From Paramyrothecium sp. XJ0827 (lineage: Eukaryota; Ascomycota; Sordariomycetes; Hypocreales; Stachybotryaceae): a DNA stretch of 64,000 nt. The notes below the pieces were generated by a model that saw only the letters and a list, made by a program, of their open reading frames with translations, did no database searches and was not told where the DNA came from. This document shows positions 3,524-52,493 of this stretch, in pieces. Every line of letters starts with the position of its first letter. The stretch's first letter is position 1. Where the stretch lies: assembly GCA_020881915.1 (NCBI GenBank), contig JAJFPB010000006.1, forward strand, positions 806,001 to 870,000. Reading direction: 5' to 3'. A program made the translations under genes and the position numbers.

Positions 3524-5647
3524 CCCAGCCATGCCTGCCTTGGGGTTATAGCGATATTCTTATTTGAGAATCCCAAACCTAGGTCTCCTTGATAAATTGC
3601 CTGATAATTTTAATTCTCTCGGATGAAGTTCAAGCGAGCCGCGGGTCGTGGCTCTTGTGAGATTAGCATACTTCTCTATTGCCTATGTGGAACTCGGCGA
3701 TGCTGCTTAGCAATCCAAGGCATTAGTAGCTACTTTGTAATATGGAACAACTGGCTATTATTACCTTGTTTATAGATCATGAATCGAGGCAATATTATTA
3801 CAGTACACGTGTTTGTACTACCAAGCGTGAAGCACTAAGAAATTATAATTTTCTTCTTAACTAAAGGTATTTTACTAAGGGATTAAGGCCTAACTATAGT
3901 ATTACTAGTACAGAAGTGAATATATTATATTCTAGCTAGGCCACTAGGGAATCCAAAGTACTGTTTACTGAAGTAATAAGGCTGGTCTCTAAAGGTTTAG
4001 ATACTACTTTAAGTTCTTTATACATCGAAAAATCACTAATACTATTTCGCTAGTTCTACACGCGATATTTAATGTAGTTTTTTTTTTTAAAGAATCACAA
4101 GTAGCTAACACCAAAAACGACCTATCTCCTGAGATATTCTCGCAATAGATTCGGTGGACATTGTCTGTATTATAGGAGCCTCGGTGCATGCATACCTACT
4201 GACCCCTGCTTTATTAAATCCGTGCCAGCCTTCGCTCAGGCATTACACAGATCCCGCAGTCTCATGTACCAGCCAAATCTCCAATTGGTCCAACTTTGAT
4301 ATCGACCGTTACGCACACGGGGCCAGAGAGGCCTCGAAACAAGAAACCCACATACGCCTTGTAGGCCCCATCGCACAGGCACTCTTCCAGGACTACAATA
4401 TTACATTATCTCATGCCTTCCAGCAGTGGAAAGTCTTTCGCAATTCTGGAAACTCGCTCCCATGGGCAAAAGACTTCGCTCCAGAGGCTCGGGGTCTCAA
4501 GTTCGACCGTTCCTTCTCACTGTTGGAGGATGCTGGGCGAAACACTGACTGGGAATACACGTTGCCAATAGCCCTGGACCCAGGATGACACAATGACAAG
4601 GTTGTTGTACTGAGTACATCATACACCATGCTTGGCTTGCAGAACATCTTTCAGCACTTGCGGAGCGCCACGGGGGTGTCACGGTATACCCTTTTTAACT
4701 GTGTTACTGATCTTGACAACTCGTGGCCTGCAGATCCATGGTATCGCTCTATCACTCATCGAATCCCCTCGTTACCATATCAACTAATGGAGCAGCGTGC
4801 AGGGTGCTCTATATGCATGTGTAGATCGAAGGGAAAGCCCGGCCTGGCCTCGAAATAATGTATGTGTCCCAAAATTAGGCCTCACGGTTGAGATGAACCC
4901 GAGATGAGCGCGTCGAGCCCGCCATCGGCAGCGATTGTACTCTGCGTGTCATGATCCCCCGGGGTACGTCTCAAGTATAACTCTGATGAGTGCATGTCTA
5001 ATGTTTTTCCCGTCCGGGTTTGCCGGTAGCCCGACTGGCCATAATCACGGAGCTCAATTCGATGACTCGTGCCGGCTTAGAAACTGTCTGCCAGGTAACG
5101 CCCTTTATTCGAGAACTGTCTCTTGAAGCAACTGAATGTCTAATTACTCATGATGACTTCGTCGCTAACCGCGTAAATGGCGGGCTTGGCCTGAAAGAGT
5201 TTTTACGCAATTGACAGTAATGACGATTGCACTCCCCTAGACATTGTAGAGATACCGAAGCCGGCACTAGACATGTCAGGAAAAGTTGACCAACAAGACC
5301 GACGTGATAATGAAGCCCTGCAGAATCATTAGCGGTTCTTCCCAACCCTTTGCATTGGCGGAGGAGATCCTATGCTGCCGTCAGATCGACCTAGCGGGAA
5401 CAAGTGTGTGATTTGTCATGTCACTGGCAACATCAAATGGCCAAAGGTTAGGAGCAGTGACCTGTCAATGTTTTTCTATACGCCTCGATGCAATGCTTTT
5501 AGCATCCCATGCCCTCGAAACTTATTATGTGAAAGTACTCAATTGAATACGAAGCTTCTGGGTTCGATACAGTTTGACCCATTGGCCATGGAGTCGGCTC
5601 AGCTAGCGCTTGACCTTCCACAACCTTCCTCCATAGAAAACCGTGCC
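3524..5647. other. Gene-poor, partly AT-rich intergenic region
   Basis: Between 3590 and 4150 the sequence is strongly AT-rich with many TA steps and no long frame. From 4150 to 5640 composition is more mixed and there are several short plus-strand frames (about 4154-4588 and 4628-4858) that lack ATG starts, do not splice together convincingly and match no family I recognise. They may be remnants of a decayed gene. Confidence 0.4.
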
Positions 5648-7908
5648 TTAGATTAATTTCAGCTCCCAATTCTTTATTCGCGGTCCCCATGACTCCCAAA
5701 GCTGTGCCCCACTCAAGCCAGTGTCCGTCTCAACACACTCAAGGAATCGATGTCCATGATCTACCCTGATGAATCTACTCTCTCCTTCTGGATGCGGAGT
5801 GATAATCAAGGCAGTGATCCCACCATTACGGAGATTTCCCAGGCGTAGTACGAACAAGGGGGCGCCGTATGAAGTACCGCCTGGAGCACTCAAATTCTTC
5901 AAATAGTCGAAGCGATGCAAATCACAAGCCTTTCCTGGCACTTTGAAGATGTGGGGGTCCAATCTGTCACGTTCTGCTCTAATGAGCTGTTCGTCGTTGC
6001 AGAATTCCGTCCGATGGATTCCATATATGAAATCGCACGTAGCCACTTTCGTGTCATTTGGCTGTTTGTCTGTGCCGTGATATGTAGTGCGGCTAATGAT
6101 CGCGGATTTGTCAAGTTGTACAACTTGTGCTCTTATGGTTATTTCCCCGCCAATTGAGTTGGACCATTTGTCCATTGATGTATCATGCAAACATGAGACG
6201 TCCACAATCTGCACAAGCGAGGAGAAGCGGTTCGGATCTTCCCGCCACAGCACCGGTGCTTCGACACCAGCCCAGGACCAGGAAGGTGGGTTCCATAAGC
6301 GACGGCAGTTGCTTGCATCAGTGCACAGCTGATCTTCTTTCCTTTCCTCGATTTGAACAGGATCCCATGCAAGTAAGTAAGGCAAATGCCATTTATCGTC
6401 CCAAAGGCCCGCCAAATACTCGATATTAGTCCGTTCTTGGAACTTGGACGCGATTCCGGCTAAAGCTCGTAGTCGATCTTCTCTTACGGTGAGAGCACGA
6501 GAAGTATATTCTTCCACGATGCCCACCCATCCGCCCAACAAACTCTCATCTCGGTTTCCAGTTGTAGTATGAGGTTCGAGTACTCCATTGTACATGTTCG
6601 ATGGCTGAGCTAGCCCTTTCATCGAAACATCTCCGGCTGACACATGATCTGTTGAATTGGCACTTAACAGGTTATGGTAAGTCCTCTTCCGATGAGGCGA
6701 CCAAGTGAAAGGCTCGGGGTCCGTAGCTGGCCAAAAGCTATCATTGCAGTCCCAGATTGGGCCCTTGTTGGAGCAAATAAGCAATCGTCGAGACAATAGA
6801 ATTTCCTGAAATACCCAAGCACGACTGAATATTATGGAAGTCTCTGATGCTGTATCCTTCACCTGTCTGAAAAAATTAAAATAGGTCCAGTCTTTCTCCC
6901 CATGCGCGTCTGTTTCGCGGACATAGAACTCAAAGCTGTGCCCGTTCCGAAGTTGCCAATTGATCTTACTGGTTCTGCCATATTCTGGGGTTACTCTGGG
7001 AAGCAATCCTTCTCGGCTATCAGCAGCCTCTGCGGCTACTATCGTAAGCGTCGAGTTTTCATAAATTTGCCACATCTGTTTTGCCGCAGATCTCCACTCC
7101 TCTATGTCGTCTTGTACGATACACAATGAGTCTATCCAGAGATACTGTAAGCCAATGTTGCGTGTAAGCATGACTGCTTGGGAAAATGTCAGTGGCATTT
7201 CTCTTATAGGGATTGCTTGAGCATAGTCTCGTATGCTGTTTCGTTTTGTTTGGAGGGTGTAGCTTGGACGGCCCCAACAATGGCTAAGACAGGCGTATTG
7301 TCCCTCTTCTCCTGGCAAAGTCGTGTGTAGATATGGCTGCTGATCAACAGTGCCGACATTGATGACACGCTTGGGTAGAGCAACCTTTTTCAAGGTACCA
7401 CAATTGCCATGGTTCTCAGAACATATCTTGATTGAGTTATGAAGGAATTGAGCGAGTTCATATGAGTATGGATCTTTGATCATAGGGCGGAGCAGACCAA
7501 ATGGGGATATCGAGATGCCGGTATCTAGTCCAAGGTTAGTGAATACCCACGTCTTGGCCATAACAGAATATGTGTTGGCTCGCCGTTCTCTAAGAATAGG
7601 TCCAAATGTAGATCAAGAGTAATACTAAGTCCAACTGTGCTTCTGCGATATGGCTGCCGCCGAGGCAAAATCTTCGTTGTTGGCAACAGGACGTCGGCTT
7701 GTTGGTGGTCTCGGAAGAACGTTAGAACGGCCGCGTGAATCATTCCACAGGCCTCACAGCCTTCCTTATAGCCGTCCGCAAAGGATGTTATCTCAGAACC
7801 CTTGAGAAACTTCGGACCTCGCAAGGCAGACTGGTCATCAAACATTTTTTGACGATGTGCGAAAATTCCTCCACAATAGGGGCAATTTGGTCGTTGAATT
7901 GAGCCCAT
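5648..7908 (-). CDS. HET-domain protein, junction near 7540 unresolved
   Basis: Heterokaryon-incompatibility (HET) family protein, a group that triggers cell death after non-self recognition. An N-terminal part starts at 7908 with Cys-pair motifs (CPYCGG, CEACGM). The main part (7561..5648) carries the HET core: the motifs LSHCWG, LWIDSLCIVQDD and RAWVFQEILLSRR. These appear in the usual order over about 260 residues, followed by a C-terminal region with WSWAGVE. The two parts are in different frames and overlap by 37 bp. The strict AG before the second part would need an intron of about 26 bp (GTGGGT...CTAG), too short for this genome. A 77-bp alternative ending at CAAAG keeps frame but has a poor branch site. 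Either the gene is frameshifted or the intron is unusual. An in-frame ATG at 7561 could give a shorter protein of 637 aa. Confidence 0.75.
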
Positions 7909-11473: not shown

Positions 11474-12825
11474 CTAAGGCTTTCCATAGGAGTGTGTACC
11501 AGGTCTATGTGAAGAAGGAGCACTCATCTTCCTGTTGCGACCCAAGTCAAGGGTGCGTTTGAAGACTCTCTCTCGGGGCTCGACAGATTGTGTCCCGATC
11601 TCTGCACAAAGTCAGATTGACAACTCAGACGGGGAAATAAAACACGGTTAGAAGTGCATACGTACGATAATGTGTCACGATTCGTCCATCAAATAATTTC
11701 ACTTGTTCTTCCTCCCCAATGGCGACGAACTCAGCGTCTGTGACGTTGGCTGCTTGGAGGTCTAGCCATACCATATTTGTTTCTTGGTCCAGTCCATGTT
11801 GGATTTGCCCGCCCAACGCAATCCACCTATCTTCGAGCCTCTTAGCAATGGCGCTGGAGCGTGGAATGAGGTCCCCGGATAGGAAAACCGAGTCCACTGC
11901 GACGCGGGCGGGTGAAGACATCACCCCGATTTGTCGCATTCCACCGCCTAGAGCTTTTCGAAAGTGTCGAGCACGCGCGATAACTTCGGGGGATTGGGAG
12001 AGTAATATGGAACCGCCTGGAGCACCTAGGGACTTGGAAACGCACAAGGTGACGGTGTCCAGCAATGCGCAGTACTCCTTCAGCAGTCGCGTCGCTGTCT
12101 TGGCTGCTTCCTCGGGCGACGAGGTCTCGCTCTCAGGGAGGGGAGGGTAACAGGCATTCCAAAGCCTGGCGCCATCCATGTGCAGCAAAATGCCTTTGGC
12201 CTTCGCATATTCAGATATTCTCTTCAGCTCGTCCAGGGGCATAATTTTCCCTCCCCAAGTGTTCTCCAGTGAGACCACTCGGGTAGGAGCGCCATGGGTG
12301 TCGCCGTCGTCTGGAACGACGTTGGAGGCGATCTCGTCTACGGTCAGGTAACTGTTGTTTTGAGGAATGACCGGTATGAGGTGGACTTGAGAGAACATGG
12401 AAGTCATGCCACACTCGTACTCAAAGATGTGGCTTCGGCGATCGCAGACGAGGCTGTATGGAGGCTGCTTGAGCAGACTACGGAAGGCGACCTGATTGCC
12501 CACTGTTCCTGAAAGCACGAATACGGCGTGAGGAACTCCTGTCAAGTCTGCCGTATAAGCCTCAAGATCATTCGTTGGGCCATCTTCCGCAAAGACATCA
12601 TCCCCAAGCGCTTGGGCGGATGTGAGTATGGAGCCGAGCATGGCTCCAGTCGGCATGGTGGTTGTGTCACCTGGGGCTCCTGTATTAGCCTTGTTCATGT
12701 AACAAAGACACGAGGGGTGACGCACTTCGGAAGTCATTGGCCGCGGAATTCGGTTGGGAATCGAAGCTCTGCTGCCACGCGTCGAGCGCGGCAGAAGCCT
12801 TTGTTCGCGATTGGCCCGTCGCCAT
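11474..12825 (-). CDS. Low-specificity L-threonine aldolase
   Basis: PLP-dependent enzyme that splits L-threonine or L-allo-threonine to glycine and acetaldehyde. Exons are 12825..12726, 12670..11666 and 11601..11474, giving 410 aa. The first splice is decisive: it builds the family signature DFRSDTTTMPT (residues 31-41), which no unspliced frame contains. GDDVFAEDGPT follows, then the HMDGARLWNA stretch that contacts the cofactor, and the Schiff-base lysine Lys246 in CVSKSLGAPGGS. The last exon restores the conserved VTHYQ. The start chosen at 12825 has a good context (GCCATGGCG); an in-frame ATG at 12888 would add 21 residues. It lies 301 bp downstream of a GMC oxidoreductase on the same strand; a shared pathway is not evident. 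Confidence 0.9.
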
Positions 12826-13126
12826 GGCTGGACGTGTCGTGAGAAGGCTGTCTTTCGGAGATACAAGGCAAGGCTCCGAGATATGCATGAGCCCGTCAGT
12901 GATTCACGCTTGCAACGTGCCACTTTATCCCCGCCCTCGATGAATGCGGAAGCAGAATTGAATGTAATTGAATGGATGGAAACAGTATGGCAACTAATAC
13001 CAAGCACTACGCGTTGCCCCTGTCGACCTGACTCAAAAACAGTTTCTGAGCTTCCAATCGTGAACTCTTGTAGACGTTGTACAATGATAAGCATTCTACT
13101 CGACCGATTCAAACGGCGTAAGATAA

Positions 13127-15069
13127 TTACACTAGCTCGTACGCCTCTTTGATTAAGGCAGAAGCTCTCTCAGCAAACGCATAAACAGTTGACTGCAGAT
13201 TGGCAGTGCTCGTAAGAGGGATCGCACTTGAGTCCACTACCCGCAACCCTTCTACTCCATGAACCCTCAACTTGCTATCAACGACACCTCCTTTGTGTTT
13301 CGGTAGCATGGCACATGTGCCTGCCAGGTGCCACATTGAGATTGCACTCGTGCGGAGAAATTTCTTTGCCCCTTCGACATCTTTGAAGTGGGAGGCGGGA
13401 TCACGTCGATGGAGCGGATGTTTGACCAACTTGCCTAATGGTGGAGAGGCCATGATTGTGTCAATGAACCGCATGTGTTGTGCCATTACCTCGATATCGA
13501 GGGGGTGGGAGAAATATCTGGGATCGATGATCGGAGGAGATGCGACGTCTGTCGACTGAATGTGAACACTACCTCGCGAAAGCGGTTGAGCGAGGAGAAG
13601 GCCTATGGAGAGAAACTTTCCATCCACTGTCCCTTGGGGCGAGTCAGAAACCGGATCTACTGGCAATATGTGCTGTGCCAGAATAGACAGATATGCCCCT
13701 GACGGTTCTCTCTCAAGTAGAGCCTTCTCGGCAATCTCGTAATATGCACGTGCACGAACTTGGCTTGGATCATCTCCAAGGGACGGACGATTGGTGACAA
13801 ACATATCTTTCAGTTCATCCTGCTCCTTCTCTGAAACACAGTCGAGGACAGGAAGGTAAGCGTACGTGTTCACGCCAACGGAGGTGAGCAAGCCAGTTCG
13901 CGTCGCTGCGTATTCCTGCATGGCCTGGCCAATGGCTTCTGGCTCTTGCCGGACAAGAGCGTCGAGCGTGTTGAGATCGTCTACCGCTTCATAGTCTATG
14001 CTAGCCAGCGGATGGTCCTGCAGATTCTCTACAACGCCTGGAACATGTTGCACAAGATCAATCCCGAGACGGCCGAGGAGGTCCGCGTCGCCAATTCCGG
14101 AGAGCTCCAGCAATTTGGGGGATTGAATCACGCCAGCAGCCAGGATGACTTCTTTGTTGCATAAGGTCTGTTCACTTTTCTTGTCATGGGTGTATTGCAC
14201 GCCAGTAGCACATGGGACACCTTCACGAGTCTCAAAGAGGATCTTCTCGACGAAAGCGCCCGTAAGGACGTGAAGGTTCTGACGATGCTTGACGGAGCCG
14301 AAGTATGCGGAGTATGAGTTGCTTCTCTCTTTGGTCTCTGGATGAATGGTTGACAAGCAGCTGAACCCACCGGTAGATGCCTCAAGGTAGGGGTTTTTAG
14401 TCATGTTTTGTCCCCGGGCCTTAAAGGTCTCTGCCCATGCCTTGCGAACAGGGTGGGACCAGTCACCGGAAAAGGATGCTTGAATGGGCCCTGTGGCTGG
14501 ACATTCATCTTTCCAGTGATTGATTCCCAACTGCTCCTTCTTAGACGCGTCGACTGATGGGAATGTGTACGTCTTGGCAAAGTATGGGCGAAGCGTAGCC
14601 CAATTCCACCCAGAATTTCCTAGTGTCTCCCATGAGTCTACAAGGCCCTTGGTGGGTGGCACAAAAACATGAGCGTTGATAGAGCTTGAACCACCGAGCG
14701 CCTTGCCCTGAGGCAGCCTGATGGATCTGTGATTGAGGTGGGGCTAGCAGTGTATCAGATTTGAGAGCTCGATGACGTGTCAGAGTGCACTACCTGTGGT
14801 TGGCTCTGAAAGTTGTAGTCAACCTCGGAGCCAAGCAAGATTGGATAGAACCCTGGCGTTTTGACCCTTGGGTCATCGCCATAGTCGGCTCCGGCTTCCA
14901 GCACAAGAACGGTTTGGCTGGGGTCTTCGGAGAGACGATTGGCGACGACTAATCCAGCTGTTCCTCCTCCAATGATGATGAAGTCGTAAATCGCTGAAGG
15001 CATGGCAATGCAATTCTCCTCTGAGATAGGGTATGGTTTATTGGTGGAAGATGAGGTATGGATGAGCAT
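13127..15069 (-). CDS. GMC-family FAD oxidoreductase
   Basis: Flavoprotein of the glucose-methanol-choline family (alcohol, aryl-alcohol or sugar oxidases and dehydrogenases; substrate not predictable). Exons are 15069..14794 and 14743..13127, 630 aa. The ADP-binding motif IIIGGGTAGLVVANRLSE lies near residue 30. GMC signature 1 (LGGSSSINAH) spans the region just after the 50-bp intron. Signature 2 (AAGVIQSPKLLELSG) is near residue 270. The catalytic His is in MWHLAGTCAM and the paired Asn in STANLQSTVYAFAE at the C-terminus. There is no clear signal peptide. A second in-frame ATG at 15003 lies nearer the FAD motif and is an equally good start. No truncation is seen. Confidence 0.9.
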
Positions 15070-22029: not shown

Positions 22030-25000
22030 CTAAATAATATTAAACAGCTCCGCATTCCAGTCTCTCCCTAGTGCAGAGGCAGATTCAGGCACTTGGCCAT
22101 CCATGCAGTCATGTATATAGCTGACAATTTTTTAGCCAAAGCGAACAATCAGGGTACGGCTTTTACTTACCAAGCTCCGATAAGCGAGAAACGGTCCTCC
22201 GATAGACGCCTCAATATGTAGGGTGTTGACCCGCCAGACAAGATGACCACCAAATCTTTTTGGTCTGTTCCTTCGGGAACCAGCCCCAGGCGACCTCCCG
22301 AGGTCACAGCCACTCGTCGGCCGACGAGCTGTGGTAGGTCATCTTGCGGCTCTATGACACTCAGCAAAGCTTCCTCTTCACTCTCTGTTCTTGGGGGAAA
22401 TGATACGCCGCGACAGAAAGATGTAGTCAATTTGACTCCCATTGGCCATTGGTTCGCCAATATGGTTCGCCATCTAGCTTCCACCCCACTATGAGGCGAT
22501 TCGGATTTGATGAGTAGCTTCTGTAGACGGTTGATGTCTCTGCACAACCCGAACACTACTTCTTTGTTGCAAATATCAAGTCGTGAAGGCTCTGTCGCTA
22601 CATTGATCGTGTCAAGGATCATGCCAGAAACCTTGAGAACAGCCGGGTCACCCGTGGCTACGAGTAAAGCTTTAGATGAAGGGCCGGCTGCCGAATAGAC
22701 ATGGGAGCCTTCAGCGTTCGAGAAAACGCCTAGGTCCAGTGGCTGTGTCTTGCTCATGGTAGCGGAGAATGGCAACGTCCAAGAACTACCCCGCGGGCCA
22801 TCACGCGCCTCGTATACCTCGCGCAGGGCCAACAGATCCAGGTTCCCGTAGGTATCAAGGAACCAACGCGATATTTCGAGAGCCACTTGTGCCTCGCTCA
22901 ACGAGTAGTCGACGCGGAACGTTTGAAGGTTTTCTCCCAGGCAAAGGCACAGCAGTGCGAATATCTTGTCTCTTGGCTCGGTGGTCATAGAACCCCGAAA
23001 CCTCCAGAGCAGCACCGGTAATTTGAGCCGCTTGTTCTGCCGGTACTCGAGCCTAGTGTGCACAATCTCCCGTGCCGTGCGCCAACCAGGGCTTTTGGAA
23101 ATGGCCCTTAACGCAGCACTCCCTGACTCTCTCAGGACATCCTTGATCCAGTCCTCGGACAGCATGATCTGTTCGACGATGTTGAAATTGAAAGACATGG
23201 AACCCCACAGAATAACGGCTTTCAGGCCGAAAACGATCTCCTGGATTACCCAGCTGCGTGTCCACCATGGGTTGTTGAAGATGCGGAGGATCTGCTCCCA
23301 GCTGTTTGACTTCTCCATGTCCAAAATCTCTTGTCTCGCAACACTCGCAGCTTCTCCGGTGCACCCGTTCAGAGTGATTGGGGCTACAGCGCTGGCAAGC
23401 CTGGCGAGGCGAACAGCGACCTCGTCATCCATCTTGTCGCCCTCACTCAACCCCACGACAACTTCACGTGCTTGGCTAAACACCTTGGCCATAACGCCCA
23501 CTTGGTGGCTCCTCTCCACTGCATCTTTCTGGTTGATGCATAGCGCGTCCAGCCACACCGCCGGGTTCTCGTCCTTAACCCTGGACCTCATACTGCGCAG
23601 CAGCATCAGCTGGTTGTCTAGTACTTGAAACTTGTGCCCGTCAATTGTAATCACATTCGGGGCAAAGTTGGAACCCCAGGCATACGACAGGGCGGCGTAC
23701 GGGGGTGCGTCGTCAAGCTTGACTTCGAACAGACGACATCGAACCATGGTGTCTGGGTCAACGGCAGGCAGAATTTCTACAAGCCTTATCCAGCTACTCG
23801 GATCTTTCAGTGGTCGGTACATGAAAGAGTCAACTCTATCCAGATGACTGATGTGTGGGATCGTGTCTGCTGAACTGTATCGCCTCGATCCGTCCCCGTC
23901 GGGTAAAGATAAAAACTGGAAAGGGCTAAACTCGTCGTAGTTTGAATGAAAGAACGGAATGTTGAGCGCAACTTTGAGATACTGCATGTTGACGGGATAA
24001 GCAGTCGTTAATGACTCAAGGCCCGTCAAAACTTCCCACAAAGTGGCCATCTCTCGCTCGTCAGCATCATGGTTTGTATCCATGATCTGCCCGACATGCT
24101 GGGGTTTTTGGTCAATATATCGCTTGATGAGGCCAAACAATCTACTAGCCCTGCGTCGAAGCATGGCAGTAGCTATAGTGGGTACGCATTGATCGTTTGC
24201 TACGCCGATATGGCTCTCCCAGTGGTACCACGCGTACCTTCGCAAGGGGTACTCTTCGTTTCGGTGACGGAGATCATAATTGTTGTAGGAAAGCAGGTAT
24301 GCCAAGCAGCTCTGCGCCAGGACAATGTGGGACTCCGCCTCTCTGAGCCCAAAACATAGCTCCTCTGGGCTCCTGGCCTCTGACGGCGTTCGGTCCTTGA
24401 GGAGGAACTCTCGAATGGAGGCGTGCACGAGCATAACGGTATGGGTCTGTGGGCTTATGACTTCTTGATCCGGCTGCAGTGGTGGTTGGATAAGGACCAA
24501 GTCCTGCAGAAGTGGCTCGAGGTCAAATGGATCTAGTCTGTCATCGATGATTCTCGACGAGTTGACATTGACAGCGCAGGCGTCCGCGAGCTCTTCTATG
24601 TAAAGCTGTCGAGCCGAGAATATGAGCCATCTCAAAGCCCTCCATGCCTTGGGCTTGTCGAACTCATCGAGAGCCTGGAGCATCTTATCGTACGTCTCGT
24701 CCAAAGTACTGGGTAGCGACTTGAGCTTGTCTTCCACCTTTCGCGCTGTCACGGGCGGCTTCAATGCTTTGAGGGACTGGACTTGCAAGAAAGCCCACCG
24801 AAACCTGCCGATACTCGTTAGTTGTCATATCGAGTGCAAAGCGCATCCTTGGCTTTGCCATACATGCCGTCGCTCTGGTCTACGACCCTGGTCAGGATCT
24901 GATCGTGGGTAGATTGCGGCAGTCGACGTAGGCGCGGGTGTGCCTTGACCTCCGAGAGAACGTATGCCCGTATATCTCCTTGTACCATTCTTGGATCAAC

Positions 25001-25876
25001 CAGCAGAGAGCTCCATGCTCCAGCGTCTTGCAGAGAGCTTTCTATGTCCCTCTGGTTGCGACTGGTCACTAAAATGTGGACGTTGGGTAATGCGAGAGAC
25101 AGAAGGGGTCGGATTTCGTCGATAAGCTCGTCAAAGACTGAATGTTCGAGTTCGTCGAGACCATCGACGAGCAAATAGTAGTCAAGATAATAACTAGTGA
25201 CATTGGTGAGCGTGATTCGTGTGGATAATACCTCAGCCAGACATGTAGCGAGCTCCCGGGTGGTGGGTGACCTGTGATCCAGCCCTTGATCGCAGATATC
25301 GTACAGTTTCTGAATGGCGACCGGATTGTCGAGGGGCGTACAAATCTGTCGCATCAACGATCTGAATAGGATAGCGATGTTCTGCCCGAGCGGATTGCGA
25401 GACGTGCAGTAGAAATAACCCAGCCTCTTCCGGCCGTCTTGGCGACACATTTCACGAACCTTCTCAACGGCCAAGAAGAACAAGACCGTCTTACCACAAC
25501 CCACTACAATGCATATTGATTAGCCCTGAAACAAAGCGGAGGCTGCGGGCTATTTACTTCCACCGTTGACCCAGGCGAGCTTTGACCGACTCTGCAGCCA
25601 GTCCTGGAATGGCTCGCCTCGAATGAACCAAGACCCAGCGTCGTCCAGCTTGCGATTCGTTCTTGACTCATCGTGGATGAATTGCTGTAGCTTCAGAGCC
25701 TCGTCGGAGGGTGACAGCCAGCGAAGCACCGCTTGCCATCGGCGCTGTGCCTTATCATCCTCGTGCGGCACATAGTTGAAAGTCCCAATGACCGGGTTGC
25801 CTATGAACTGTATTCCGTGGTCAGAAACGGTTGCGTTTCCCACCGAGACGCTCCCCGTCGGGCGAGAATTCGCCAT
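22030..25876 (-). CDS. NLR: amyloid-like motif, NACHT, C-terminal HET
   Basis: Large STAND-type receptor, 1227 aa. Exons are 25876..25558, 25503..24864, 24804..22171 and 22120..22030. Residues 9-34 form a short Gly/Asn/Val-rich motif that matches the C-terminus of the divergent neighbour. The NACHT NTPase follows: Walker A GGMGCGKT (about 105-112, completed by intron 1) and Walker B YYLLVDGLDEL (about 214-224). Then come SRNQRD (sensor region) and SDGMFRWAFLQ, built by intron 2, and a winged-helix stretch with VHASIREFLL. From about residue 650 a complete HET domain begins: YAALSYAWGS, WLDALCINQKD and WWTRSWVIQEIVFG. The last exon adds the conserved ending CYIHDCMDG. There are no WD40, ankyrin or TPR repeats. 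NACHT and HET share one uninterrupted exon, so the fusion is not a gene-model artefact. Inferred role: oligomerising sensor that triggers incompatibility or defence cell death. Confidence 0.88.
25775..25852 (-). other. N-terminal amyloid-like motif of the NLR
   Basis: Residues 9-34 of the NLR. Key positions are SVSVG at the start, then Gly21, Gln23, IGN at 25-27, IG at 30-31 and Asn34. All are identical in the paired motif of the HeLo-like protein. Confidence 0.7.
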
Positions 25877-26311
25877 CCGAATGGTGTCTCAGTCCCCCCG
25901 CGCCGACCATACGAGCCCCCGATCGGGTGGAAACAAATATGGACAAGAGCCAACAGTATCTGCTACGCCGAGCTCTTGAACGGCTTGTGACTGAATCTCT
26001 TCAAAATGATCGGCAGCTTTGGTGAGCGGCCATTTGAACAAGTCCTTGGCTGCCTAATTTTATGGCGCTCAAAAGAAAAGAAAGCTGGAAATGCCAATAT
26101 GCAGCAGGGGACACTCTTGCTAAGCCTATTCGTCAAAGCCTCAGCGTGGTAATCCTTCCTCCTACTGGTCTGTGCTGACCTGAGCTGTGCTGCATTTCAC
26201 TCTGCCGCCAGAAACGAGGCTCTCATCAGACAAGGCTGCCTAATTATCACATCATAACGGCTTGAATCGGTGCCCAAAAATCTCCGCACCAGTTTCACAC
26301 CATTGCAGATT
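25877..26311. promoter_or_regulatory. Shared divergent promoter of NLR and HeLo-like gene
   Basis: 435 bp between two start codons facing away from each other. Head-to-head arrangement suggests co-expression. No TATA box or known operator is evident. Confidence 0.5.
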
Positions 26312-27254
26312 ATGGCGGAGCCAGTCGGCATCACAGGGACGGCGCTGGCCGTGGCCACCTTGCTATACAAAAGCTGCCAGACCATTCACGACATTGTCGA
26401 TCAGTACCAGAAAGCGCCCAAGGAGTACAAGGACATCGCTCAGGACTTGGAAGGTCTGCAAAGTTCTCTGACGTCGCTCACCAAAGTCCTAGAAGACGTG
26501 GACGATGGCGATCTCTCTGAAGAACAAGCAGCCACCTTGAAGCACTTGGGACCACCTTTGACCACCTGCAAGGCTGCTTGTGACGACTTTGCCGCGAAAC
26601 TATCTCACCTGACGTCACATTCGACCGAGGATCACACCGCCGTGCGGGATAGGTTCCGGCTCCATTTCAACAAAAGCGACGTTGCGCTGCTGAGAGACAA
26701 ACTCAACACGACCAAAAGCACACTGCAGATTGCGCTGGGCGTATCCACGCTGTTAGTCGATCAGGCTTTCCTGCCACTGCCCGTTCAGCCCAAGAGCTAA
26801 CATGTTCAGGAAATCAATCGGCGACAATCAGGCGACACTCAACGAATTCCAAGAAACGACGGCCACGGCTTTGAGCGAGTTCTCCGGCAAATTTGAGGCT
26901 CTGACACTAGCCGTCGATGCCCTTTCAATCGCCGGTGTGAACATAGCGCCCAAGCAGATTGAGGCGGTCGAGCAGACGCTTGCAGGGCAACGCCAGCTCC
27001 TGCAGCAGTGCCTCCAGCTCTGTACACATGCTCATATGGCAACAAATTCGGCTCAGCCTGGCGTCCAGGTGCGACACGCCAAGGCCATGGATCATGCACG
27101 GCAGGTCTTAGGCAATCTAGGGCCCATCAAGGCTGATGCGCCGTCCGTGTCCGTGGGTACCGCCGATGCTGGTGGATCGGGGTTTCAAGGGATCGGAAAC
27201 ATGGATATCGGCAGTCTTAATCAAGGGGCTTTGGACTTTCTGGCTAGGAAATAG
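26312..27254 (+). CDS. HeLo-like domain protein with C-terminal amyloid-like motif
   Basis: Putative cell-death effector of 294 aa. Exons are 26312..26751 and 26810..27254; the GTTAGT donor and GTTCAG acceptor give the continuous family sequence ALGVSTLKSIG. Residues 1 to about 225 are helical and resemble the HeLo-like N-terminal domain of fungal STAND proteins (Pfam PF17111 type). The domain starts MAEPVGITGTALAVATLLYK, an amphipathic first helix that in HeLo relatives inserts into membranes. A second diagnostic stretch is APKEYKDIAQDLEGLQSSL. A short linker leads to a 26-residue segment (259-284) that matches the N-terminal motif of the divergent NLR. Only ten residues follow. Inferred mechanism: the NLR nucleates folding of this motif, which activates the helical domain. 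Function in this species is not shown by sequence. Confidence 0.87.
27144..27221 (+). other. C-terminal amyloid-like motif of HeLo-like protein
   Basis: Residues 259-284. Ungapped comparison with NLR residues 9-34 gives 14 identities in 26 positions (SVSVG, Ala, Gly, Gln, IGN, IG, Asn). Codons differ at most shared residues, so this is protein-level conservation, not a recent DNA duplication. Confidence 0.7.
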
Positions 27255-42016: not shown

Positions 42017-43051
42017 ATGCTTCGTTTCACTTCCAAAAACTTGTTTTTGACTCTTCTTGGTCTCCCGCAAACAATTCGAGTTGCTGCTCAGAGCAATACT
42101 CCAGGCACCACGGATTTCTCGGAATGGTTCCCCGTCACAGAATTTCCCAACGCCCAAGCTGACAACTTGTCCTACTGGCAAGCAGAGGCCCAAAGGATTG
42201 CTGGCCCAGACCTGTGGTTTGAATACCAGTGGCGATGCATCGTCTCCAGCCAAAAGTATCCCGAGATCGGCTCGAGCGCGCAACAGGATGGATTCGTCAA
42301 ACCCGCGCGCGTCTTCGACTCGGTATTCTTCGTTGGCGAATCTAGTGTCTCGGCTTGGGCCATCGATACAGGCGACGGGCTTGTTGTGATTGACGCGTTG
42401 TGGAACGCTGATGAAGCCAGAGAAGTCTTGGTGCCAGGCCTCCAGTCATTTGGATACGAAGGCTCCGACGTCAAAGCCTTGATCCTTACTCATGAGCATC
42501 TCGACCACTTTGGTGGTGCTCTATACTTGCAGGAGACATTTGGCAGTCCAGTGTACGCGACGGAACCAGCATGGAAGACGCTTGCCAACATAACTGGCGC
42601 CCCAATCAAGGACAAAACTCTTGTAGATGGCGAAATTCTGAGAATTGGCAATACCTCCCTCGCCGTATATTCTACGCCTGGGCACACTCCTGGCACGCTG
42701 TCGCTTTTCGTCCCGGTCTACGAACATGGCGAGCGGCACCTCGCCGGACTCTACGGTGGTGGCGGCATACCCTCCTCGGCAAATGACAAGGCAATGCAGA
42801 TCGAGTCATTTGAGAGGTTTGCTGGTTTGGCCGAGGCTTTGGGAGCAGATGTATTGCTGGCCAACCACCAAACGCAAGATCGCTCGCTCCCCAATCTGGA
42901 TGTTTTGGCAAACAGGCAATGCAACGGCGCCAATTGCACAATAGCAAACCCTTACATTGTTGGAACGGATCGATACGTACGATATCTGAAGACAATGGCG
43001 GCGTGCGTCAGGGTGAAGGCAGCGCGACAGGGCCAGAATCTGAGAATCTGA
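42017..43051 (+). CDS. Secreted metallo-beta-lactamase-fold hydrolase, B3-like
   Basis: Single-exon gene, 344 aa. An N-terminal signal peptide (FLTLLGLPQTIRVAAQS region) suggests secretion. The metallo-beta-lactamase core contains HEHLDH (His159, His161, Asp163, His164), His223 in TPGHTPG and His284 in LLANHQTQD. All six metal ligands of a dinuclear site are therefore present. The order and the preceding FFVGESSVSAWAIDTGDG strand resemble subclass B3 enzymes and their relatives. Two cysteines near the C-terminus (CNGANC) may form a disulphide. Substrate is unknown: lactonase, lactamase or other ester/amide hydrolase are all possible. The absence of introns fits an origin by transfer but does not prove it. 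Confidence 0.87.
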   Translation: MLRFTSKNLFLTLLGLPQTIRVAAQSNTPGTTDFSEWFPVTEFPNAQADNLSYWQAEAQRIAGPDLWFEYQWRCIVSSQKYPEIGSSAQQDGFVKPARVFDSVFFVGESSVSAWAIDTGDGLVVIDALWNADEAREVLVPGLQSFGYEGSDVKALILTHEHLDHFGGALYLQETFGSPVYATEPAWKTLANITGAPIKDKTLVDGEILRIGNTSLAVYSTPGHTPGTLSLFVPVYEHGERHLAGLYGGGGIPSSANDKAMQIESFERFAGLAEALGADVLLANHQTQDRSLPNLDVLANRQCNGANCTIANPYIVGTDRYVRYLKTMAACVRVKAARQGQNLRI

Positions 43052-50501: not shown

Positions 50502-52493
50502 ATGCTGTGTGAACAATGCAGAGCCGTCTTTGAACAGCCTACGGCTCTCCAACAGGAAAGGCGACAGCAGGGCAATTGGTCAGCAAGGTTTGACTACGTC
50601 ACGACGCTTTCCAAGCTGCGACAAAAGGCAAACCTATGCTACAGCTGCCGCAGTATCGTGTTCAAACTTGCCTCTCAAGAGCAAACTCCTGTTTCGGACG
50701 ATACTCTTCTGGCAATGGGATATGGTCTATGGGTTCCGAATGGCAGGGAGAACCTCGCACGAGTAACCATTTCGGTAAATGTGGAGAAGAAGAAGGTCGT
50801 GTCGCAACGCTTGTGCCTCCAGAGATACCAAAGGGAAGGTAAGAGGAAACACTAAATTGACGGTGCCAATCTGACAGCCTACATAAGCTCAGTGCACTAG
50901 CTCGAGCACCGGCTCTGACGAAACCCTGGAGTTCGTGAAACACTGCCTGCATTGATGCCAAACCCAACACAGGACGTGTTCCTCTCATGGCGGTAGTGAC
51001 AAATGGTATCCCGCGCGACTCCTAGAAATCCAGCATGATAGTATAAGACTTGTGGAGTTCGCGGAAAGCAGCATCTCTAAGCCTTATGCAAGCTTGAGCC
51101 ATTGCTGGGGCGGGGCAGAGATATTGAACCTCACTACAAAGAACATCGAGCATCTCAAAACCGCCATCGACCTGCACTTGCTCCCGCAAACATTTCAAGA
51201 CGCGATCAAGGTCTCAAGAAGCCTTGGCATTAGTTACATTTGGATCGACTCACTTTGCATAATCCAAGACTCGACAGAAGACTGGAAGAAGGAGTCACGC
51301 ACCATGCTTCAAGTGTATCGGCACGCGCTTTTCAATATCGCCGCCACTGACTCGAAGAACAGTTTCTCAGGGTTATTCAGGACAAGGCGACCGGCGGTAC
51401 TAGCATCAGATGTAGTCAACATAGACAATGGTCCACTGAGAGGCTCTTATCAACTGGTCAATGAACACTACTTTATGGAAGAGGTGGATGGCGCACCGCT
51501 CAATCGCCGTAGCTGGGTCACACAAGAGCGGATGCTTTCTCGACGCATTGCACATTTTGCGTCCGAGCATGTCATCTGGGATTGTGCTGAGTTGACAGCT
51601 TGCGAAACGCTACCTTTGGGCACGAAGGTATGGCCGGACTGTGAATGGGGCCAAAGGAAAATTGGCTGCAAACAGGGTCACCACTCTTTGATGCTTGCCG
51701 AAACTATCGAGCAGGGGTTGGGCCAGTGGGCTAGAATCGTTGATACATATTCGGACTGTGGCCTGACCTTTGCTGGTGACAAGTTGGTGGCCACGCCGGG
51801 ATGGCCGAGTACTTGCGCAGCTTACTGAAACTCGAATACTGCGCTGGTCTTTGGCGTTCAAAGTTGGAGATTCAATTGGCGTGGGTAGTTGCAAACACGC
51901 AAGGCACAGGGAAGCCACGAAACAATCTTGCGCCCACATGGTCTTGGATATCCATCAACGGTGGCGTGAAATTGCAGCAGGTTGATGCGTACAAAGGCTA
52001 CGATGTGAAGTTACTCGCCAATGTCACTGATGTCGAGCTGGACGAGAAGACTGATGAGGGCCGAGGCTCAAGGGTCACCGGCTACCTGCGATTGCGTTGC
52101 ACCTTGAATGCCGTGACAATCGGTGGCGATGCTTTGTGTCCACATCTTCACGGTGAAGGCATGGAGCATGCTAGGGACTTGCTGCTTGATTCTCCTGACA
52201 TTATCGGCGCTGATGGCCTCTTTTTTGTACCGCTATTCGACCTTCAAGCATCAAACTCCGCTTCTGATAAATACCCGGCCTATTCAGAGATTAGAGGTAT
52301 TATCATACACTGCATGAATCGGGTTTCTGGCATTTACGAGAGATGCGGTCACGCTTTATTGTCATCCAATACTTCGCAAAACACGAATCATTTTGCCTCA
52401 TCATATGAAAACGTCAAGTTACCCCAGGGCAAAGAAGGGTTTCCCTGCCAAGACTACAATCCTGCTTCCGGTCATTTAATCACCTTGGTCTAG
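50502..52493 (+). pseudogene. HET-domain gene inactivated by nonsense and frameshift
   Basis: Coding similarity runs across the whole interval in the order expected for a HET protein. It starts with the typical N-terminus MLCEQCRAVF (an in-frame ATG at 50418 is less likely). An intron begins at a GTAAGA donor near 50838 and probably ends at ACATAAG near 50887. The next exon carries DETLEFVKHCL and then a TGA (50953-50955) inside an otherwise conserved segment that resumes with QTQHRTC and KWYPARLLEI. The HET core follows: YASLSHCWGG, IWIDSLCIIQDS and RRSWVTQERMLSRR. Near 51791-51801 the frame shifts: DKLVA ends one frame and MAEYLRSLLKLEYCAGLW begins in the next, with no intron signals between them. 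A C-terminal region with TWSWISINGG runs to a stop at 52493. Two independent lesions argue for a real pseudogene; a sequencing error could explain one of them. Confidence 0.8.

Follow-up and report, generated by a model that had tools for sequence, protein, structure and literature searches.

In a stretch of 64,000 nucleotides from the fungus Paramyrothecium sp. XJ0827 (contig JAJFPB010000006.1; C12:806001-870000 in the genome we searched, of 51.8 Mb in 15 contigs; hereafter the window), a gene for a NOD-like receptor (NLR) adjoins a gene for a HeLo-like protein, and the two products share a short motif, at the N-terminus of the first and at the C-terminus of the second. Judging from sequence comparisons, we consider it probable, at about 0.8, that these two genes together encode an amyloid signalosome of the HET-S/NWD2 type. 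An earlier note on this DNA had proposed that the NLR and the HeLo-like protein are joined by such a terminal motif; this is supported by the match of the effector to PF17111 (2e-31), the family called HeLo-like in the literature, by the NPHP3_N/NACHT domain of the NLR and by the retention of the motif in homologues. The NLR holds one copy, r0, and the effector two, r1 and r2; the layout is therefore the r0/r1/r2 layout of NWD2/HET-S. What is said below of published systems follows the portions available to us of PMC9815663, PMC4518210, PMC3321046, PMC5485727, PMC12261475, PMC4986451, PMC7889193, PMC7885112, PMC8086366, PMC12881547, PMC10197012 and PMC12258605.

The motif shared by receptor and effector

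The likeness first reported, 14 identities over 26 ungapped positions between NLR residues 9-34 and effector residues 259-284, is confirmed. When both 60-residue termini were shuffled 20,000 times, any ungapped 26-residue window being allowed, no shuffle equalled it: the maximum was 11 identities, and 50 for the BLOSUM62 score against 59 for the real segments. A chance origin of the likeness is excluded. Besides, the effector contains a second copy, r1, starting 28 residues before r2, which the earlier note had not seen. The same period of 28 separates r1 from r2 in the five effectors compared (window, Neopestalotiopsis, Xylariaceae sp. FL1651, Xylaria cubensis and Nemania), and both repeats are present in 4/4 homologues. 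Over the 16 copies gathered (six r0, five r1 and five r2), the Gln, Gly and Asn of the turn Q-x-h-G-N are invariant.

On the receptor side, the N-terminus is visible in six of the 13 closest relatives of the NLR (P0005-P0017), and five of these six carry r0: those of FL1651, of Podospora conica and of Fusarium albosuccineum, and two proteins of Fusarium decemcellulare. The sixth, P0017, displays a more HET-s-like motif at the aligned place. The seven others are uninformative on r0 because their sequences begin at window-NLR residues 326-361. Orthologues devoid of the segment, for which the earlier note had proposed to look, were thus sought, and none came up among these effectors and readable receptors, P0017 being counted with its related motif. 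Between the window and FL1651 the core of r0 (residues 14-27) is identical at 13 of 14 positions, whereas residues 35-98 agree at 33 of 64. In the effectors the degree of conservation is much the same for r1, r2 and the HeLo-like domain, and residues 220-231 keep only 2-4 of 12.

The correspondence between r0 and the pair r1-r2 holds in both directions. A position-specific profile of r0, built only from the Podospora and Fusarium receptors P0012, P0014, P0015 and P0016, takes r1 and r2 as its two best non-overlapping windows in 5/5 effectors, a result equalled in no effector by any of the 5,000 column-permuted profiles; conversely a profile of r1 and a profile of r2 each rank r0 first in 6/6 NLRs, scanned whole. 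With single sequences (six NLR termini by five effector termini) the best match is r2 in some comparisons and r1 in others, and some pairs are weak, e.g. the NLR of FL1651 with the effector of X. cubensis, equalled by 124 of 400 shuffles. The FL1651 homologues of the two proteins are each on a contig of 1,365,088 bp, which suggests that they are linked, without by itself showing adjacency. For the two cognate pairs, window and FL1651, r0 and r2 share 11/19 identities within the window, 7 and 8 across the pairs and 6/19 within FL1651, the window pair being the most alike of these combinations; the corresponding r0-r1 values are 8, 8, 7 and 9.

The class of the motif

According to the available text of the 2015 survey (PMC4518210), HET-s-related amyloid motifs (HRAMs) are defined by a conserved G19, by hydrophobic residues at positions 5, 8, 10, 16 and 18 and by a preference for R or K at position 15, and HRAM effectors bear two imperfect C-terminal repeats, separated by a loop of 6-18 amino acids, after a HeLo, HeLo-like or sesA domain. 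Scored in this numbering, all 16 copies have G19, N20 and a hydrophobic residue at 8, 10 and 18, and 13 of them a hydrophobic residue at 5. Position 16 is Gln in 16/16 copies, hence hydrophobic in none, and Gln at this core position is the published hallmark of the HRAM5 subfamily (PMC4518210). With a motif of 21 amino acids the period of 28 leaves a loop of about 7, inside the published range; the repeats come after PF17111, and the single copy of the receptor lies near the N-terminus of a divergent adjoining NLR.

The genome also contains a canonical HET-S/NWD2-type pair, divergent and head to head at C7:1804361-1805582: the NLR, on the minus strand, carries r0, and the effector, on the plus strand, includes a region matching PF11558 (69.5 bits); at least two candidate amyloid pathways are therefore present in this genome. 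WD-like repeats and a HeLo part were read by eye in the C7 pair. A canonical HET-s profile was made of five motifs, two from the HET-s chain of the PDB and three from the C7 pair. It takes r1 and r2 as its top two windows in 4/5 effectors and ranks r0 first in 5/6 NLRs, the window NLR being scanned over residues 1-623. The number of permuted canonical profiles, out of 5,000, equalling both top windows is 5 for the window effector and 27, 108, 65 and 0 for the homologues P0001, P0002, P0003 and P0004; because of these counts, we regard the link with HRAM as clear for the window and P0004 and as moderate for the others. In reverse, when the profile of the 16 copies is run on the C7 pair, its two best windows in the HET-S-type protein are r1 and r2, at low scores, and r0 comes first within the 136 residues scanned of the NLR. 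In-register pairing of charges points in the same direction: Arg6 and Lys9 of r1 face acidic residues of r2 in 3/5 and 4/5 effectors, and a summed r1-r2 charge product as low as the observed -8 came up in 5 of 10,000 column permutations.

Several observations nevertheless weigh against a signalosome of the HET-S/NWD2 type. The pairing of charges is an unsafe marker, as the canonical HET-S pair of the genome sums to 0. The canonical profile ranks r1 third in P0001 and r0 second in P0014, and was matched by 108 and 65 permuted profiles in P0002 and P0003 as given above. R or K occupies position 15 in 7/16 copies (4/6 r0, 3/5 r1 and 0/5 r2), and a polar N, Q or H position 3 in 3/16. At E up to 10, none of PF11558, PF17108, PF17046, PF17106 and PF12721 (the last of which we take to be RHIM) matches any of the seven segments searched, and none of the five matches P0012, P0014 or P0015; the positive control, which was the genome's HET-S-type pair, gives both PF11558 and PF17108, and P0017 gives a weak match to PF11558 (E 0.12). 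Used alone, the profile of the 16 copies fails to bring up HET-s in the PDB (E up to 10), the PDB searches with the motif profiles A3, A4 and A6 gave no amyloid, and those with A3, A4, A6 and A7 did not retrieve HELLF. Searches with single segments gave no relevant match. Finally, the conservation of r1 and r2 does not exceed that of the HeLo-like domain, the adjacency of NLR and effector was not seen in other species, and in FL1651 the cognate pair is the least alike in r0-r2 (6/19), so that no cognate co-variation is seen there. Profile A7 did retrieve HET-s from the PDB, and this result was discarded as evidence since A7 contains HET-s rows.

Part of these observations could also be accommodated by a genuine signalosome whose motif belongs to an undescribed class unrelated to HRAM, r0 templating r1-r2 through a fold other than that of HET-s. 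The unmatched HRAM families of Pfam, the 16-copy profile without PDB match, the Ala found at positions 8 and 10 of the core and the little positive charge at position 15 go in this direction, as do two resemblances read by eye, GxQxxG of the window r0 and r2 to the core of PUASM and GxQF of r0 to sigma A. We consider this improbable. The canonical HET-s profile selects these windows too, and in an identical register; tandem repeats in the effector for a single one in the NLR, the length of the loop and Gln16 are all published HRAM features; and as PF11558 is matched by no more than 38 of the 155 HRAM proteins published (PMC4518210), the lack of a Pfam match is weak evidence against HRAM. The complete patterns printed for PP (NxGxQxGxN), sigma A and B (GxGxQF and GGTQN), PUASM (FxGxGxQxxGxGxF) and GDQN are moreover found in none of the 11 regions scanned, and the effector has PF17111 and not PNP_UDP, the partner domain of PUASM.

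Most likely, as far as sequences tell, the motif is thus a divergent HRAM with Gln in its core, as in HRAM5, rather than a new class. The suggestion of the earlier note that it might belong to an undescribed class did not find support, the canonical HET-s profile picking out the same segments and Gln16 being an HRAM5 feature. The number of the subfamily is uncertain, because HELLF of Podospora anserina is labelled HRAM5 in later papers and the 2015 table (PMC4518210) places P. anserina under HRAM4. In the same survey Pestalotiopsis fici has members of both HRAM4 and HRAM5, and effector-like proteins such as ours (<310 amino acids, HeLo-like) would, from the portion available, pass its filter. 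In P0017, a NACHT-HET protein from a metagenome (ENA), the score of residues 65-84 is 21.1 under the canonical HET-s profile, compared with 13.1 under the profile of the new motif; this N-terminal motif is a possible intermediate between HRAM1 and the motif of the window.

The architecture of the receptor

The NLR combines its N-terminal motif and its NACHT domain with a complete C-terminal HET domain, and HET is listed in 13/13 of its closest relatives, which have the same order of NACHT and then HET and no recognised sensor repeats. With exon 3 of the NLR (877 amino acids) as query, the genome gave 57 matches, 52 of 209 candidates having been scored. Among the matches listed, the window gene is the only one to cover the query from end to end; most of the rest match its HET part, and four of them (C11, C8, C11 and C1) span about residue 322-332 to residue 864-877. 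Since the HET proteins of the genome align from the HET domain towards the C-terminus, the NLR looks like an r0-NACHT part fused to a complete HET protein. No WD, ANK or TPR was matched in the window NLR by Pfam at E up to 1, so that it shows no recognised sensor repeats.

In the literature at our disposal, the NLRs of amyloid signalling are described with WD, ANK, TPR or HEAT repeats, HET, a known death-inducing domain, is described as an N-terminal domain of NLRs, and separate HET/STAND gene pairs were looked for in a 2012 survey without success. A C-terminal HET on an amyloid NLR is not found in the portions of this literature that were examined. The novelty most likely lies in the architecture of the receptor, and the motif in all likelihood is a divergent representative of an established superfamily.

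This architecture raises the question of whether the HET domain itself provides the main output, r0 and the HeLo-like gene being a minor or decayed branch. HET is death-inducing in the published accounts available, it is complete here and general in the closest relatives, and partner effectors were found in four other species only. On the other hand all copies of the effector motif and r0 are intact and conserved, with a core of r0 far better kept towards FL1651 than the stretch that follows (13/14 against 33/64). A leading role of HET, which we find quite improbable, is in any case compatible with amyloid signalling and would alter only the weight given to it.

One may also envisage, more tentatively, that the window NLR belongs to a conserved clade of receptors (amyloid motif, NACHT, HET) spread among Xylariales, Podospora and Fusarium relatives, with two death outputs: an N-terminal HRAM with Gln in its core, acting through a HeLo-like pore, and their own C-terminal TIR-like HET, without sensor repeats. 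The motif would then be a separate HRAM subfamily, parallel to the canonical HET-S/NWD2-type pair and insulated from it. We hold this broader scheme as possible but doubtful.

Other copies of the motif and related loci

Translated searches of the genome with r2 and r0 found only the copies of the window; the search with r0 of P. conica gave no match, an empty result that carries little weight. Among 61 NLR matches (scoring was limited to the 7,991 candidates with the most words in common), the r0 profile gives 44-53 for five (P0005, P0012 and P0014-P0016), 12.1 for P0017 and 8.8 for the next best; the scores of 44-53 are inflated because those sequences built the profile. In the HeLo-like paralogues of the genome (nine other loci and two wider stretches, read in six frames) the best score with the r0 profile is 9.4. 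A paralogue on C9 shows, where r1 would be expected, a weakly r1-like window with a score of 9.4, so that r1 may partly descend from the tail of the domain. That r1 could be a general feature of PF17111 was considered and rejected: six PF17111 NLRs (P0023, P0027-P0030 and P0047) score at most 7.8 with the combined profile and at most 6.4 with the r0 profile.

The C9 window could also be quoted, together with a helix placed over r1 (residues 230-249) by a low-confidence AlphaFold2 model, for shared segments that are not amyloid but a short helical or otherwise folded homotypic interface; this is very improbable, as the helix is not counted because the predicted local distance difference test (pLDDT) is too low (mean 44.7, below 50 over residues 143-294), chance alone is excluded by the shuffles and permuted profiles, and the invariant Gln-x-h-Gly-Asn turn with the HET-s register would rather favour a beta-arch.

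A further head-to-head locus was noticed, on C9 (L019), with putative readings at 4146-4325 (-) and 4689-5726 (+). Its PF17111 protein (4.1e-28) ends in an HRAM-like stretch (11.6); the divergent gene has another such stretch (16.8) in an upstream open frame, with a weak PF17111 match and a weak ubiquitin match. No NLR was recognised at this locus.

Proposed mechanism and significance

By analogy with NWD2/HET-S and FNT1/HELLF, the NLR of the window would stay inactive until a cue lets its NACHT domain oligomerise. The r0 segments thereby clustered could fold into solenoid rungs, a template that would convert r1 and r2 of the adjoining HeLo-like protein; as in HET-S and HELLF, this conversion might free the helical HeLo-like domain to attack the membrane, form a pore and kill the cell. 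Amyloid formation, templating and killing by the window pair are thus inferred from the known systems. The HET part could be either a sensed element or a second death output.

A receptor with an amyloid motif and a complete HET at opposite ends offers a test of whether one receptor can feed two death pathways, or whether HET is the part that is sensed. Besides, six r0, five r1 and five r2 sequences with Gln in the presumed core are a useful set for asking what prevents cross-seeding between HRAM subfamilies, the more so as the same genome holds the canonical HET-S/NWD2-type pair.

The locus and its gene models

The NLR, on the minus strand, and the effector, on the plus strand, are head to head, and in both the introns are GT-AG and the frames join cleanly. 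Protein homologue searches place the nearest relatives of both in Neopestalotiopsis and Xylariaceae. The features are collected in Table 1. A bacterial promoter scan of the 435-bp intergenic region was set aside as inapplicable to fungi.

Table 1. Features of the NLR and effector genes, in positions of the window.
Feature	Position	Strand	Evidence
NLR gene, 1198 aa, r0 - NPHP3_N/NACHT - HET	22167..25876	-	spliced model, Pfam, relatives
NLR exons	25876-25558, 25503-24864, 24804-22167	-	spliced model
r0, single HRAM-like motif, NLR residues 10-29	25790..25849	-	motif comparison/profiles
Longer NLR segment of the earlier note, residues 9-34	25775-25852	-	
NPHP3_N/NACHT, NLR residues 81-289, split by intron 25504-25557	24956..25636	-	PF24883 1e-29, PF05729 5.8e-8
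C-terminal HET domain, NLR residues 689-842	23238..23699	-	PF06985 1.3e-24, whole model length
Upstream region common to both genes, 435 bp between start codons	25877..26311	.	
HeLo-like effector gene, 294 aa, exons 26312-26751 and 26810-27254	26312..27254	+	spliced model, homologues
HeLo-like domain PF17111 (now named PigL_N), effector residues 2-219	26315..27026	+	2e-31
r1, first HRAM-like repeat, effector residues 232-251	27063..27122	+	motif comparison/profiles
r2, second HRAM-like repeat, effector residues 260-279	27147..27206	+	motif comparison/profiles
Longer effector segment of the earlier note, residues 259-284	27144-27221	+	

Two more genes with a HET domain lie in the window, at 5648-7612 (-) and 50956-51828 (+), with matches of 1.2e-28 and 2.9e-31. 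Its other neighbours (947-2278, 11628-14743 and 42017-43048) include a Zn2Cys6 regulator, a beta-eliminating lyase (PF01212), a GMC oxidoreductase and a protein with a metallo-beta-lactamase fold.

Comparison with known systems

The HNWD proteins (HET-E, HET-D and HET-R) share with the window NLR the presence of NACHT and HET within one protein. In the descriptions available to us, however, their HET is N-terminal and their WD40 repeats C-terminal, whereas the window HET occupies residues 689-842 of 1198, the N-terminus being formed by the amyloid-like motif, and no WD40 is matched by Pfam at E up to 1. The PNT1/HELLP system resembles the window pair by the association of an NLR and a HeLo-like effector with matching terminal motifs; it differs by its PP motif, given in the published excerpts as a single copy with NxGxQxGxN, which is unmatched in 11/11 regions here.

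The likeness is closer with NWD2/HET-S (HRAM1), including the C7 pair: the arrangement r0/r1/r2, the divergent adjacent genes and the register ending in G and N are the same. HET-S has a HeLo domain in the accounts at hand, whereas the effector of the window is HeLo-like; the motif of the window has Gln16, lacks Asn3 in r1 and in r2 and has a shorter loop, and its receptor is without WD repeats. With FNT1/HELLF of P. anserina (HRAM5), as far as the published portions describe it, the window pair shares an NLR with N-terminal r0 adjoining a HeLo-like protein (277 amino acids in HELLF, a length similar to the 294 here) that ends in two repeats, and a Gln in the core of the motif, this last point following the published description of HRAM5 rather than the sequence of HELLF. 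The difference is in the receptor: FNT1 is described as an NB-ARC protein with TPR, whereas the NLR of the window associates NACHT with a C-terminal HET.

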